From: Planctomycetota bacterium
GTDB taxonomy: Bacteria; Planctomycetota; PUPC01; DSUN01
Direction: 5' to 3'
DNA length: 11,487 nt
Assembly (NCBI GenBank): GCA_016872875.1
Contig: VGYW01000272.1
Location: 1-11,487, forward strand
The translations under genes were made by a program, and so were the position numbers. This document shows positions 2,985 to 9,407 of the stretch, piece after piece. Below the pieces are notes generated by a model. It did no database searches. It saw only the letters and a program-made list of their open reading frames with translations, and had not been told where the DNA came from. Within the stretch, counting starts at the first letter, position 1. Every line of letters begins with the position of its first letter.

Positions 2985-3054
2985 TGGATGACTGGATGAC
3001 TGGATGACTGGATGGGTGTCGGACAATCATCCATTCATCCACCGATCCAAACAT
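2985..3054. repeat. 8-bp tandem repeat (TGGATGAC) with partly complementary second arm
   Basis: TGGATGAC is repeated almost four times from 2985 to 3014. After about 12 bases the sequence turns into ATCATCCATTCATCC-like DNA (3027-3054), which is partly the reverse complement, so a hairpin can form. It fills the gap between the rpsT stop and tldD. An in-frame ATG at 3012 falls within the repeat and is unlikely to be the real tldD start. Confidence 0.75.
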
Positions 3055-3062
3055 CCCCTTGT

Positions 3063-4424
3063 ATGGAAGCAGTTCTCAAGGATGCTCTAGGGCATGCCCG
3101 CGCCGACTACGCGGAGGTCCGCGTGGAGCGGAGAACCTCCACGCGGATCAGCTACGTCGGCCGCGAGCTGGAGGACCTCTCCGGCTTCACCTCCGCCGGC
3201 GGATGCGTCCGCGCGCTCGTCAAAGGCGGCTGGGGCTTCGTGGCCTTCAACGACCTCGGCGACCTGCCGCGCTACGTGCGCCTGGCCTGCGAGCAGGCGG
3301 CCCTTGTGGGGCGCACGAAGAGCCAGTTGGCGCCAGTCGTCCCGGCCACGGACAGCGTGGCGGCGCGGCCCGACTCTGACCCCCGCCAAGTGCCTCTCGC
3401 CCAGAAGGAAGCCCTCTGCCGGCACTATAACGGCCTCATCCTGGCACGCGAGCGGGTCCAGACCTCCAGCGTGCGCTACCACGATTCCTGGGCCGAGACG
3501 ACGTTCGTCTCCACCGACGGCGCGTGCGTCCGACAGGAGGAGGTCTTCTGCGGCGCCGCGCTCGCCGCGATTGCCAAGGACGGGATGAACGTCCAGCGCG
3601 CCCACAAGGGCGTGGGCGACCTCCGCGGCTACGCAATCGTCGAGGGCCTCGACGCCGACTGCGAGAGGGTCACGGAGCGCGCCGTCGCGCTCCTGGCGGC
3701 AGAGCCGGTGAAGGGCGGACGCCACACCGTCATCATTGACCCCCTCCTCGCCGGGGTGTTCGCGCACGAGGCATTCGGGCACCTCAGCGAGGCGGACTTC
3801 GTCTACGAGAACCCGCCGCTGCGCGAGATGATGCAGCTAGGCAGACGCTTCGGGCAGGACCACCTGAGCATCGTGGACGACCCGACGCTGCCCAACGAGG
3901 CCGGCTCCTACCGCTTCGACAGCGAGGGCACGCCCGCCCGCCGCACCGAGCTGATCAAGGGCGGCGTGCTCGCCAGCCGCCTCCACTCGCGCGAGACCGC
4001 CGCCAAGATGGGCGAGGAGCCTACCGGCAACGCACGCGCAATCAGCCACCAGTTCCAGCCCATCGTGCGGATGTCCAACACCTACATCGAGCCGGGGAAA
4101 TGGGCGCTGGATGACCTCCTGTCCGACACGGGCGAGGGGCTGTACGTCCGCGGCTCGCTCGGCGGCCAGACCGAGATGGAGATGTTCACGTTCTCGGCCG
4201 AAGAGGCGTTCGCCATCCGGGGCGGCCGCCGCGCCGAGCGGCTCCGCGAGGTGGTCCTCACGGGCAATGTCTTCGAGACCCTTGCGAGCATAGACGCGGT
4301 CGGGAGCGACCTCGCCTTCTACGGCGGCCTGGGCGGCTGCGGCAAGGGCGAGCAGAGCCCGCTCCGCGTCTCCACAGGCGGCCCACACATCCGCATCCGA
4401 AACTGCCTTGTTGGGGGGCGTTGA
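3063..4424 (+). CDS. tldD: TldD, metal-binding subunit of the TldD/TldE metallopeptidase
   Basis: The protein is 453 residues from ATG 3063, close to the family length. TldD pairs with TldE (PmbA); the heterodimer cleaves unfolded peptides in the cytoplasm and is known in E. coli for microcin B17 maturation and CcdA turnover. The HExxxH motif is intact (His235, Glu236, His240 in HEAFGHLSEAD). The C-terminal GGCGKGEQ block carries Cys426, matching the cysteine reported as third metal ligand in E. coli TldD, and GGPHIRI follows as usual. The start at 3063 (MEAVLKDALGHARADYAEVRVE) matches the family N-terminus; the in-frame ATG at 3012 lies in repeat DNA. No convincing ribosome binding site is visible before 3063. 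pmbA follows but is now separated by an inserted element. Physiological substrates cannot be deduced here. Confidence 0.94.
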   Translation: MEAVLKDALGHARADYAEVRVERRTSTRISYVGRELEDLSGFTSAGGCVRALVKGGWGFVAFNDLGDLPRYVRLACEQAALVGRTKSQLAPVVPATDSVAARPDSDPRQVPLAQKEALCRHYNGLILARERVQTSSVRYHDSWAETTFVSTDGACVRQEEVFCGAALAAIAKDGMNVQRAHKGVGDLRGYAIVEGLDADCERVTERAVALLAAEPVKGGRHTVIIDPLLAGVFAHEAFGHLSEADFVYENPPLREMMQLGRRFGQDHLSIVDDPTLPNEAGSYRFDSEGTPARRTELIKGGVLASRLHSRETAAKMGEEPTGNARAISHQFQPIVRMSNTYIEPGKWALDDLLSDTGEGLYVRGSLGGQTEMEMFTFSAEEAFAIRGGRRAERLREVVLTGNVFETLASIDAVGSDLAFYGGLGGCGKGEQSPLRVSTGGPHIRIRNCLVGGR

Positions 4425-4426
4425 GT

Positions 4427-4435
4427 GTGGTAGAT
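4427..4435. repeat. Left copy of 9-bp target-site duplication
   Basis: GTGGTAGAT here is identical to 4999-5007. The two copies directly abut the terminal inverted repeats of the element between them, which is the arrangement left by transposition. This copy begins 2 nt after the tldD stop codon. Confidence 0.8.
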
Positions 4436-4476
4436 GAGTATAGCCCCCAGTTCTGGTGTTCTGCGCGCGGGCCGAC

Positions 4477-4490
4477 GCTCCGAATGGAGC
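4477..4490. repeat. Hairpin with compensatory partner at 4950-4963
   Basis: GCTCCGAATGGAGC folds as a 5-bp stem. The equivalent position in the other half of the element (4950-4963, GCCCCAGTCGGGGC) has changed both sides of a stem pair, so pairing is kept. Confidence 0.65.
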
Positions 4491-4553
4491 GTACTATAGC
4501 AGCCCAGGGCGAAGCCCTGCTCTTTGCCCACATCTTCTGGGGGCTGGGGTTTA

Positions 4554-4569
4554 GCCCCCGAATGGGGGC
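4554..4569. repeat. Hairpin with compensatory partner at 4743-4758
   Basis: GCCCCCGAATGGGGGC folds as a 6-bp stem. Its counterpart at 4743-4758 (GCCCGCGTCGGCGGGC) swaps a C-G pair for G-C while keeping the stem intact. Confidence 0.65.
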
Positions 4570-4574
4570 GTTTG

Positions 4575-4737
4575 AGCCGTAGCCCAGGGCGACCGAAGGG
4601 AGCCCTGGGAAAAGGCCCCGCCAGCGTAGAGCCCCCGAAGCGGGGCGATTCAATGGGCGTGAAACGCCCCCTTCGGGGGCTTGGATGCGGGGGACGCGCG
4701 ATCCCAGGGCTCCCTTCGGTCGCCCTGGGCTACGGCT
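4575..4737. repeat. Perfect 36-nt inverted repeat at the core of the element
   Basis: Bases 4575-4610 are the exact reverse complement of 4702-4737. The 91-nt spacer holds two further GC-rich hairpins (4631-4646 and 4666-4680). Each 36-nt arm also contains its own small hairpin with CCCAGGGC and GCCCTGGG sides. Confidence 0.9.
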
Positions 4738-4823
4738 GGGTCGCCCGCGTCGGCGGGCTACAAGGCCCCGAGATGTGGGCAAAGATCAGGGCGAAGCCCT
4801 GGGACAGGCGGGCGGCCGGATTC

Positions 4824-4897
4824 AGCCCTGTAGGGGCGTACTAGCCGCCGCAGGAGGGATGTCGCGCATGGACCACGCAGTACGCCCCTTCAGGGCT
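4824..4897. repeat. Extra inverted repeat present only in the right half of the element
   Basis: The arms 4824-4842 and 4879-4897 (AGCCCTGTAGGGGCGTACT and its complement) match at 18 of 19 positions around a 36-nt spacer. The segment has no counterpart in the left half and is bounded by inverted AGGGCGAAGCCCT units, so it may be a later insertion or module duplication. Confidence 0.7.
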
Positions 4898-4998
4898 AAC
4901 CTACATATCGCCTCCTTTCCCAGGGCTTCGCCCTGGGCTGCTATAGTACGCCCCAGTCGGGGCTTCAGACCAGCTCACGACAACTGGGGGCCATACTC

Positions 4999-5007
4999 GT
5001 GGTAGAT
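4999..5007. repeat. Right copy of 9-bp target-site duplication, overlapping the pmbA start
   Basis: This GTGGTAGAT is identical to 4427-4435. Its first three bases are the GTG start codon of pmbA, so the present start codon lies in the duplicated target. Confidence 0.8.
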
Positions 5008-6300
5008 CAGGTCCTTGATCTCGCCCGCCGCAAGGCTGACTCCGCAGAGGCCCACCTCATCCAAACCGAGGCCAGGCCAGTCCAGTTCGAGAACAACGAT
5101 CTGAAATACGTCCACACGAAGTCGTCGCGCGTGCTGAGCTTGCGGGTGATCCACGGCGGGCGAATCGGGTTCGCGAGCACGACCGACCTGTCGGAGCCTG
5201 AGCGGCTGGTCTCGCAGGCGATTGAGAGCGCACAGTTCGGCCAGGAGGCGAAGTTCGCCTTCCCCGCCGCTGCGCCGTGCCCAAGCGTGGCGGCCTACGA
5301 CCCGCGCGTGGCCGAGTTCCCGGTCGAGCGTGGCATCGAGCTTGGCCGCGAGGCTATCGCCGCCGTCCTCGCCGCCTTCGCTGACGTCCAGTGCTACGTC
5401 GAGGTCAGCAAGGCCGTCAGCGTCGAACGCCTGGCGAACACAAGCGGGCTGGACGTGCAGGAGCGCACGACCGGCTTCGACTGCGGCCTCACCGCCGTGC
5501 GCGTGCGCGACGGCGGCATCCTGTGGGTGAGCGACGGCGAGAGCTCCAGGGCTCTCACCGCGAACTTCGCGCGCTACACCGCGAAGGTCATCGCCGATGT
5601 CCGGCGGGCGGAGACCGAATCCCCCGCGCCCTCTGGCGCGGTCCCCGTCCTCTTCACCGCCAGGGCCGTGGGCCTGCTCCTTCAGTTGCTCGAGACCGCA
5701 GTGAACGGCAAGCTGGTGCAGAAGGGCGCCTCGCCGCTCGTCGGCCGCCTGGGCGACCAGGTGCTCGGCACGGAGATCACCATCTACGACGACGGCACGC
5801 GCCCCTTCGGCGACGGCACCGCCGCGTGGGACGCCGAGGGCGTGCCCAGCCGCAAGACCCCGGTGTTCGAGCGTGGCGTGCTGCGCAACTACCTCTTCGA
5901 CCTCCAGACGGCTGGGATGCTGGGCGCGGCCTCCACGGGCAACGCCGGGCGCGGCTTCGCCGCCACGCCAGGCCCCGACGCAACCAACTTCGTCCTGGAA
6001 CCCGGGTCCGCGACCTTCGGCGAGCTCCTCGCGGGGATCGAACGCGGCCTCCTCGTGGACGAGGTTATCGGGGGCGGGCAGTCCAACGTCCTCGCCGGCG
6101 AGTTCTCCGTCAACGTCAGCCTCGGCTTCCTCGTCGAGCGGGGCGAGATCGTCGGGAGGGTGAAGGACTGCATGGTGGCCGGAAATGTCTTCGACCTCTT
6201 CAAGCGTGTCAGGGGCATGGGCCGCGAGCAGGAGGTCCACGGCCCGATCGTCGCGCCGCCCGTCTGCTTCGACTCCGTTCACGTTGCGGGCGGCAAGTGA
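4999..6300 (+). CDS. pmbA: PmbA/TldE, partner subunit of the TldD/TldE metallopeptidase
   Basis: The protein has 433 residues, of typical PmbA/TldE length. It shares the TldD fold (N-terminal VDQVLDLARRKADSAEAHL, middle FDCGLTAVRVRDGG, C-terminal GGGQSNVLAGEFSVNVSLGFLVERGEIVGRVKDCMVAGNVFDLF) but lacks HExxxH. This is normal for TldE, which forms the heterodimer without the metal-binding residues. The GTG start at 4999 fits the family N-terminus; the only possible ribosome site is GGGGG at 4986-4990, which belongs to the inserted element. In the reconstructed pre-insertion sequence the start lies 2 nt after the tldD stop, implying an ancestral translationally coupled pair. The two genes are now 574 nt apart, so expression of this one may depend on read-through across a highly structured leader. 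Confidence 0.93.
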   Translation: MVDQVLDLARRKADSAEAHLIQTEARPVQFENNDLKYVHTKSSRVLSLRVIHGGRIGFASTTDLSEPERLVSQAIESAQFGQEAKFAFPAAAPCPSVAAYDPRVAEFPVERGIELGREAIAAVLAAFADVQCYVEVSKAVSVERLANTSGLDVQERTTGFDCGLTAVRVRDGGILWVSDGESSRALTANFARYTAKVIADVRRAETESPAPSGAVPVLFTARAVGLLLQLLETAVNGKLVQKGASPLVGRLGDQVLGTEITIYDDGTRPFGDGTAAWDAEGVPSRKTPVFERGVLRNYLFDLQTAGMLGAASTGNAGRGFAATPGPDATNFVLEPGSATFGELLAGIERGLLVDEVIGGGQSNVLAGEFSVNVSLGFLVERGEIVGRVKDCMVAGNVFDLFKRVRGMGREQEVHGPIVAPPVCFDSVHVAGGK

Positions 6301-8693: not shown

Positions 8694-9407
8694 ATGAAGG
8701 CAATGGCAAGGCGGCGGGAGCTCGGGCAGTACTTCACCCCGCAGCCCGTGGCGGCGTTCGCCTTCGACGCCCTGACCGCCTTCGGGCTTTCAGGGCAGCG
8801 CCTCCGCGTGGTTGACCCGGCCTGCGGCGAGGGGGTGTTCCTCCTCGAAGCCCTCCGCCGTTGGCCAGAGGCCGAGGTGTGGGGCTGGGATCTCGATGCC
8901 GGCTTGACCGAGCGATGGCTCGCGGCCGGCCTCAGCGGGCCGCGCGTCCACTTGCAGGTCGAGGACGGGCTCCTCGGCACACCCCTCTGGGGCCTGAAGC
9001 AGGAGCAGTTCGATCTTGTTATCGGCAACCCGCCCTACGGGCTCGGGCTGCCGCGTCCAGGCCGTGGCGAAACCATCGAGGCGCTCTTCGTCCGCCGCTT
9101 CGTCGCGCTCGCACGACCCGGCGGCTGGCTGGCCGTCGTGGTCCCCGAAGGCATCGTGGCCGGCGACCGCTCGCAGCGCCTGCGCGACTGGCTTCAGCAA
9201 CGTGTGGCGCTGAAGGCCGTCGTCGCGCTCCCCGAAGGTACATTCGCGGGGAGCGGCACGGCCGCACGCACGGCGCTCATCCTGGCGCGCAAGGGAAGGG
9301 ATGACGGCCGCGATGTGCTTCTGGCATCTCCGTCGCCGGAGTGCCGGGGCAGCGACGCGCTGGCCGCCTATCTCAACGAGGTCCTGGCCAGAATCAGGGG
9401 CTTGTGA
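8694..9407 (+). CDS. Short HsdM-like N6-adenine DNA methyltransferase
   Basis: The protein has 237 residues in the order motif X (GQYFTP, 11-16), motif I for S-adenosylmethionine (DPACGEGVFL, 41-50) and motif IV catalytic NPPYG (112-116). A closing LPEGTFAGSGTAARTALILARKG block resembles the end of the HsdM N6_Mtase domain. HsdM and most stand-alone adenine methyltransferases are much longer (about 400-600 residues) because they carry recognition or partner-binding regions; none is apparent here. No restriction endonuclease or HsdS-like specificity gene is in the window. It could be an orphan DNA methyltransferase with an unknown partner, or have a changed substrate (RNA or protein), since NPPY also occurs in such enzymes. 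ATG 8694 is used; ATG 8703 is an alternative. The FHA regulator starts 3 nt after its stop. Confidence 0.82.
   Translation: MKAMARRRELGQYFTPQPVAAFAFDALTAFGLSGQRLRVVDPACGEGVFLLEALRRWPEAEVWGWDLDAGLTERWLAAGLSGPRVHLQVEDGLLGTPLWGLKQEQFDLVIGNPPYGLGLPRPGRGETIEALFVRRFVALARPGGWLAVVVPEGIVAGDRSQRLRDWLQQRVALKAVVALPEGTFAGSGTAARTALILARKGRDDGRDVLLASPSPECRGSDALAAYLNEVLARIRGL

Follow-up and report, generated by a model that had tools for sequence, protein, structure and literature searches.

Probable nested MITEs between tldD and pmbA in a planctomycete: an outer element of a family found beside promoters and an inner element with IS50/Tn5-type ends

The block that separates tldD from pmbA in the window, the whole 11,487-nt stretch of Planctomycetota DNA analysed here, is probably a nest of two MITEs, the outer one of a promoter-targeting Mutator type (ISKra4-like most likely) and the inner one of the IS50/Tn5 type. 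Both elements are short and gene-free, end in inverted repeats, are flanked by a target duplication and occur in multiple copies. We file them as MITEs that would work like two known transposase classes, and for the outer element "ISKra4-like" names a likeness and not membership. The features of the junction are as follows.

3012-4424, + strand: tldD, with PmbA_TldD domains; reading frame whole
4427-4435, no strand: first GTGGTAGAT of the outer target duplication (9 bp)
4436-4519, + strand: left end of the outer element (GAGTATAGCCCCCAGTT...), an imperfect 84-bp arm that ends in the hairpin piece CAGGGCGAAGCCCTG
4508-4516, no strand: first GGCGAAGCC of the inner duplication (9 bp), within the loop of the hairpin formed by the outer element
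4517-4789, no strand: inner element, 273 bp, with IS50/Tn5-type ends CTG[CA]TCTTTGCCCACATCT
4552-4767, no strand: core of the inner element, a palindromic REP-like unit, found alone elsewhere in genome G001 without a detectable target duplication
4578-4609, + strand: hairpin within the REP-like core, with a GTAG tag (another of this type lies at 4698-4729)
4790-4798, no strand: second GGCGAAGCC of the inner duplication (9 bp)
4921-4998, - strand: right end of the outer element, a 78-bp arm with the same ends in reverse complement
4999-5007, no strand: second GTGGTAGAT of the outer target duplication (9 bp), which holds the GTG start of pmbA
4999-6300, + strand: pmbA (tldE), with PmbA_TldD domains; frame whole, start within the right outer duplication
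5014-5019, + strand: CTTGAT, 6 nt past the right outer duplication, at the place of CTTGAC (-35 box) in many outer-type copies

The two copies of GTGGTAGAT lie exactly where the initial annotation had placed them, and the block between them (4436-4998, 563 bp) has terminal inverted repeats that pair at 16 of 17 positions, beyond which a weaker inverted repeat runs on to about 84/78 bp. The pairing claimed for these termini was borne out against 200 simulated windows with the trinucleotide statistics of the real one. Among these, a 9-mer direct repeat with inverted inner ends reached 14/17 at best, in a single case; 16/17 is found twice in the window itself, at the outer block and at the interval between GGCGAAGCC at 4508 and at 4790, the latter absent from the initial annotation. 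As proposed, removal of the block and one 9-mer leaves the tldD TGA, two nucleotides and the pmbA GTG, and a comparison of tldD-pmbA spacing in relatives yielded a locus that matches this reconstruction. At L001, the nearest match among 30 loci that PmbA retrieved (PmbA 86% identical), the junction reads TAG, CG, ATG, that is, stop, 2 nt, start, and constitutes an empty site, which backs the reading of the block as a transposed, non-autonomous insertion that duplicated 9 bp. This locus comes from a Planctomycetota MAG, isolate M_DeepCast_400m_m2_195, whose genome is G001. The gap could be read in 17 of the other 29 loci, with values of -1 (L012, L027, L028), 1 (L007) and up to several kb; none was readable in the remaining 12 (L003-L006, L010, L011, L018, L020, L022-L025), where the TldD query matched PmbA alone.

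Both reading frames are intact after the insertion because the outer duplication contains the pmbA start codon, and the tight coupling of the two genes is lost, which may have altered the TldD/PmbA balance. The single strand of 4427-5007 folds strongly (z = -19.5 versus 100 shuffles, DNA parameters). No promoter or terminator patterns were found in 4200-5300, and there were no Rfam matches at gathering scores. Neighbouring genes in the window include those for S20 and a UvrD-type helicase, among others; an N6 DNA methylase-like gene (8694-9407) comes directly after the helicase gene. At L026:4423-4963, a different planctomycete carries an insert of its own between tldD and pmbA, with 34-nt inverted repeats (94%) around a 186-aa ORF whose match to 23S_rRNA_IVP falls just under the Pfam cut-off.

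The initial annotation took the block to be one 563-bp element; its mobility stands, its unity does not, as the block resolves into an element of 281 bp that holds another of 273 bp plus the latter's 9-bp duplication. The inner element has its own 16/17 inverted repeats (the ends are also written CTGATCTTTGCCCACATCT) and its own duplication, GGCGAAGCC, and it occupies the loop of a hairpin, CCCAGGGCGAAGCCCTGGG, of the outer element, whose ends read GAGTATRGCCCCCAGTT (also written GAGTATGGCCCCCAG and GAGTATRGCCCCCAG). Each element has counterparts without the other in G001. At L063 (2651-2930), a 280-bp outer-type element without the inner one, flanked by the 9/9 duplication TGCTTCGTG, aligns end to end with the outer element of the window (inner element and one 9-mer left out) at 83.4% identity over 283 columns. 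The inner element is, over its whole length, 93-94% identical to copies in contigs C113 and C74, which lie between CCCTCGGGG duplications. L115, L128 and L137 each have an outer element that shares the core of the window's but is only 80-81% identical to it; at the same position these hold pieces 98-99% identical to the inner element. The inner element thus postdates the divergence of these outer copies, and its recurrence at one position makes the outer hairpin a repeated landing place.

From these comparisons we infer the nesting order and the order in which the outer element arrived here. The 281-bp outer element would have been inserted at the tldD-pmbA junction by a promoter-targeting Mutator-type DDE transposase (ISKra4-like most likely), duplicating GTGGTAGAT, and the 273-bp element with IS50/Tn5-type ends would have entered the loop of the outer hairpin in a separate insertion, duplicating GGCGAAGCC. 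Alternatively, the whole block could be one 563-bp MITE brought in by one transposase in a single insertion, any nesting being older and having taken place elsewhere. The outer duplication of the window is perfect, whereas three composites with both outer ends in G001, L065 (two inner copies), L078 and L079, have kept none, and the same nest, in the same outer core, recurs elsewhere at L137, so that transposition of a composite as a unit may occur. However, the inner piece has ends and a 9-bp duplication of its own, lies alone at other sites between other 9/9 duplications, is absent from L063 and shows the disparity in identity described above, and we consider a single insertion improbable and two insertions the preferred reading. 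A single outer element, at L065:7921-8690, was also seen to hold a pair of inner elements, both flanked by a 9/9 duplication of their own.

A search for the same ends in G001 (8.9 Mb), of the kind that the initial annotation had advised for the source genome, returned many copies, a sizeable share of which have 9-bp duplications. When up to 3 mismatches were allowed, the outer end pattern gave 66+68 matches versus 5+8 for the reversed control, and the inner end pattern 36+45 versus 2+0. We then restricted the pairing of ends to 100 regions (1.18 Mb of G001) picked for carrying such matches. Strict outer end pairs less than 1.5 kb apart numbered 28, with a 9/9 duplication in 11 and 8/9 in 5; strict inner end pairs numbered 25 (two of them without a left flank and one spanning two copies), with 9/9 in 13 and 8/9 in 1. 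Under looser criteria, G001 yielded 24 outer copies whose duplication was 8/9 or better. The duplicated outer copies are 163-345 bp long and share their ends, a GAGCATGACTCCTCG variant occurring among them, around several unrelated cores.

No transposase gene with matching ends, which the initial annotation had suggested looking for, was found for either element in G001. Longer outer-ended elements (0.9-4 kb, duplication at least 8/9) were absent from the 1.18 Mb; the matching search for longer inner-ended elements was loose, with mostly chance rows among the matches listed. The 100 regions contained no inner-element shell lacking the core. The first bases of five G001 contigs (L115, L123, L129, L132, L137) lie at or inside an inner-type copy, which indicates that the element breaks the assembly, and the absence of autonomous copies may stem from that.

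Among 148 relatives, 81 had a match to the outer end pattern, with a clear excess in G001 only (59+68 versus 1+0); totals in the others were at most 5 per genome, and controls reached 7. The inner end pattern was matched in 20 of 149 relatives, with more than two matches only in G001, G004, G006, G086 and G110. Plasmids gave one weak 83-bp match, in Candidatus Thiodictyon, and viral contigs none to the TldD patterns. The outer 17-mer occurs at two places in viral contigs (L061, L062), of which L061 falls within a phage-like ORF run and was taken as chance. Places with GAGTATAGCCCCCGG in G143 and G114 were set aside as not of this family, their partners being 183-323 bp off, their duplications 2-5 of 9 and their appearance REP-like. 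Repeats of 183-185 bp starting GAGTATAGCCCCCGGCTTTC at L294, L295 and L296 (G143), with hairpins and no target duplication, likewise look REP-like.

In terms of the enzymes involved, which the initial annotation had left unspecified, the field can be narrowed, by inference, to an IS50/Tn5 type for the inner element and a promoter-targeting Mutator type (most likely ISKra4-like) for the outer. Both inner ends match the IS50 end signature, CW------Y---CA-A--W- (consensus from PMC2266710), which is expected by chance at about 0.0005 per position at equal base frequencies. The 9-bp duplication lies within the 8-9 bp of the IS50/Tn5 subgroup. These likenesses to the IS50/Tn5 subgroup of IS4 and its MITEs, as described in PMC2266710, suggest that an IS50/Tn5-type enzyme moved the inner element, which differs from the subgroup in having no transposase gene and a REP-like palindrome as its core.

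The target sites of the inner family are palindromic. All 8 pairs at distances 2-9 from the centre of the duplication are complementary in 7 of 15 inner sites (null 0.034%) and at least 6 pairs in 8 of 15 (null 0.83%), and the centring is exact to the base; none of 24 outer sites had 6 or more pairs. Palindromic targets have been described for Tn5 and, in REPs, for ISRm22 (PMC1525189).

A relative, G086, offers a parallel in its 218-bp mini-elements, which have 9/9 duplications at two of three loci examined (L215, L221; none seen at L200). Their sequence matches the two ends of a 2130-bp IS (L226:2-2131) over 38 bp at 87-89% and over 17 bp at 100%. This IS has a 708-aa open frame with DruA, Tn5 DNA-binding and Tn5 dimerisation domains (IS4_3 model, 389 bits), an IS50/Tn5-type transposase fused behind a DruA (Druantia) domain, and it lies at a contig start, where its duplication is unreadable. 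Its ends are similar in kind to the inner ends, one of them departing from the IS50 signature at the last base. In G001, PF14706 had no match, and no pair of inner or outer ends was seen around the 9 PF01609 (DDE_Tnp_1) loci.

The core of the inner element leads a separate existence, about 215 bp of it being found solo in G001. At 12 of 12 solo copies examined there was no 6-14 bp duplication with inverted ends. GTAG stands on one side of core-type hairpins in at least 67 of 152 strand readings, each hairpin being read on both strands. The core thereby resembles the GTAG-tagged REPs described in PMC3733652, with which it has in common GTAG beside a palindrome and solo copies without target duplication, and from which it differs in being carried within a DDE-type mini-element.

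Many copies of the outer family lie at a fixed distance from predicted promoters. In 13 of 24 outer copies, one of the two flanks has CTTGAC (at least 5/6) at exactly 6 nt from the duplication (chance 1.2%). With a rule requiring -35 and -10 boxes of at least 4/6 each at a spacing of 16-18, a predicted promoter was located 7-8 nt past the duplication, and hence 16-17 bp from the element end, in 14 of 25 duplicated copies, the copy in the window being counted among the 25. The same rule returned 0.19% at random positions and 0.47% (52 of 10952) at positions 20-150 bp upstream of long ORFs. Over 50 offsets in 24 copies, 11 promoters fell at offset 7, 3 at offset 8 and at most one at any other; L070:13416-13628, with an 8/9 duplication and no promoter, is left out of the 24 used here, for CTTGAC and for the palindrome count, and included in the 25. 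The inner family had promoters in at most 1 of 15 copies at any offset. An ORF of at least 80 aa begins within 300 bp of 13 of the 14 promoter-adjoining copies, a count without a control.

Offsets 7-8 were first picked after seeing the data; they equal the published 16 bp, and they held in a held-out set made of every other outer end that the 100 regions contain (17-mer, at most 3 mismatches), 52 of the 90 ends there being outside the copies already used. Here, a promoter was present at offset 7-8 in 10 of 52 (9 at 7, 1 at 8; null 0.083%), with at most one at any other of 50 offsets, and one of the ten, L093, had been seen beforehand. By the rule, 11 of the 25 duplicated copies and 42 of the 52 held-out ends have no promoter, the latter including ends of decayed copies and chance matches.

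Three same-core outer elements had their flanks inspected singly, those of the window, L063 and L137, and a promoter was seen at L137 only. This copy, which has the outer core of the window and the inner element and is cut on its left by the contig end, reads TTGACG, 17 nt, TAGGAT at offset 7. L063 has no promoter at the rule distance. In the window, CTTGAT is at the right distance and the -10 box reaches only 2/6, so the copy is not at a promoter.

Copies that land in genes would be eliminated, and upstream regions tolerate insertions. The associations with promoters and palindromes could accordingly reflect selection on the survival of copies and not the choice of target. This is very hard to reconcile with a distance fixed within 1 bp, both in the duplicated copies and in the held-out ends, which selection would not produce, with the mere 0.47% in 20-150 bp upstream regions in general and with palindrome centring that is likewise base-exact; we regard selection as highly improbable and target choice as the better account of both associations.

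Promoter-directed insertion, an unusual property among prokaryotic transposases, is described in PMC3942029 for p-MULT 3 (TnGBS/ISLre2) and for 13 ISs of the ISKra4 group (p-MULT 4). That paper gives a peak of -35 boxes at 16 bp, target duplications of 8-9 bp and insertion in both orientations where the ends are nearly symmetric, places p-MULT 4 elements in Planctomycetes and lists for ISKra4 a duplication of 8-9 bp together with ends of 18-39 bp in which the terminal C is conserved. The outer element has such a duplication and such ends (here G...C), and part of its family, though neither the window copy nor L063, lies at about 16 bp from predicted -35 boxes, in both orientations with near-symmetric ends. 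It is taken as ISKra4-like because insertion distance, duplication length, end symmetry and occurrence in Planctomycetes match PMC3942029. The outer element differs from the ISKra4 and TnGBS/ISLre2 groups in that it has no transposase gene, is 163-345 bp long in G001 and, in the window, stands off a promoter; the enzyme of the window copy is consequently judged from its ends, its duplication length and its kinship to L137.

G001 had no match to PF14706, PF00872, PF06782 or the ISKra4 model, and neither IS256 nor ISLre2 was found there. The ISKra4 model matched in 39 of 199 relatives, 6 of them over the cut-off. No ISKra4 transposase on an element with exactly the outer ends was found in G001 or in the 18 ISKra4 loci of relatives scanned, where the best likeness, in a scan that required G...C ends, was one end of L301 (9/9 duplication), GAGTGTGGCCC. 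Inspection by eye, without scoring, of 12 flanks of six ISKra4-type elements of relatives revealed no promoter so placed. An ISLre2/TnGBS-type (p-MULT 3) or other promoter-targeting enzyme in place of ISKra4 is a rather unlikely mover of the outer element. It would suit the lack of an ISKra4 element with exactly the outer ends, and p-MULT 3 elements likewise insert about 16 bp from -35 boxes (PMC3942029). However, PF06782 matches in only 1 of 59 relatives, at a place also matched by the more widespread ISKra4 model; ISLre2 is found mostly in Firmicutes; and promoters beside either end of the outer element fit near-symmetric ISKra4 elements. An ISKra4-like enzyme stays the favoured candidate.

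We propose, tentatively, that a planctomycete lineage carries an outer-type MITE family which homes genome-wide to sites upstream of -35 boxes, at 16-17 bp, and thereby places a uniform hairpin-bearing cassette before many promoters. These cassettes would be landing pads for palindrome-seeking Tn5-type MITEs and might serve as a regulatory module dispersed over the genome. Among the open-licence papers listed by literature searches, no bacterial MITE that inserts at promoters was recognised. The nested block of the window would unite two target rules, promoter-homing and palindrome-homing. With tens of copies, a promoter-homing non-autonomous family would provide a natural insertion set from which to learn how a transposase finds -35 boxes, and the same set could show what a fixed upstream cassette does to promoters.
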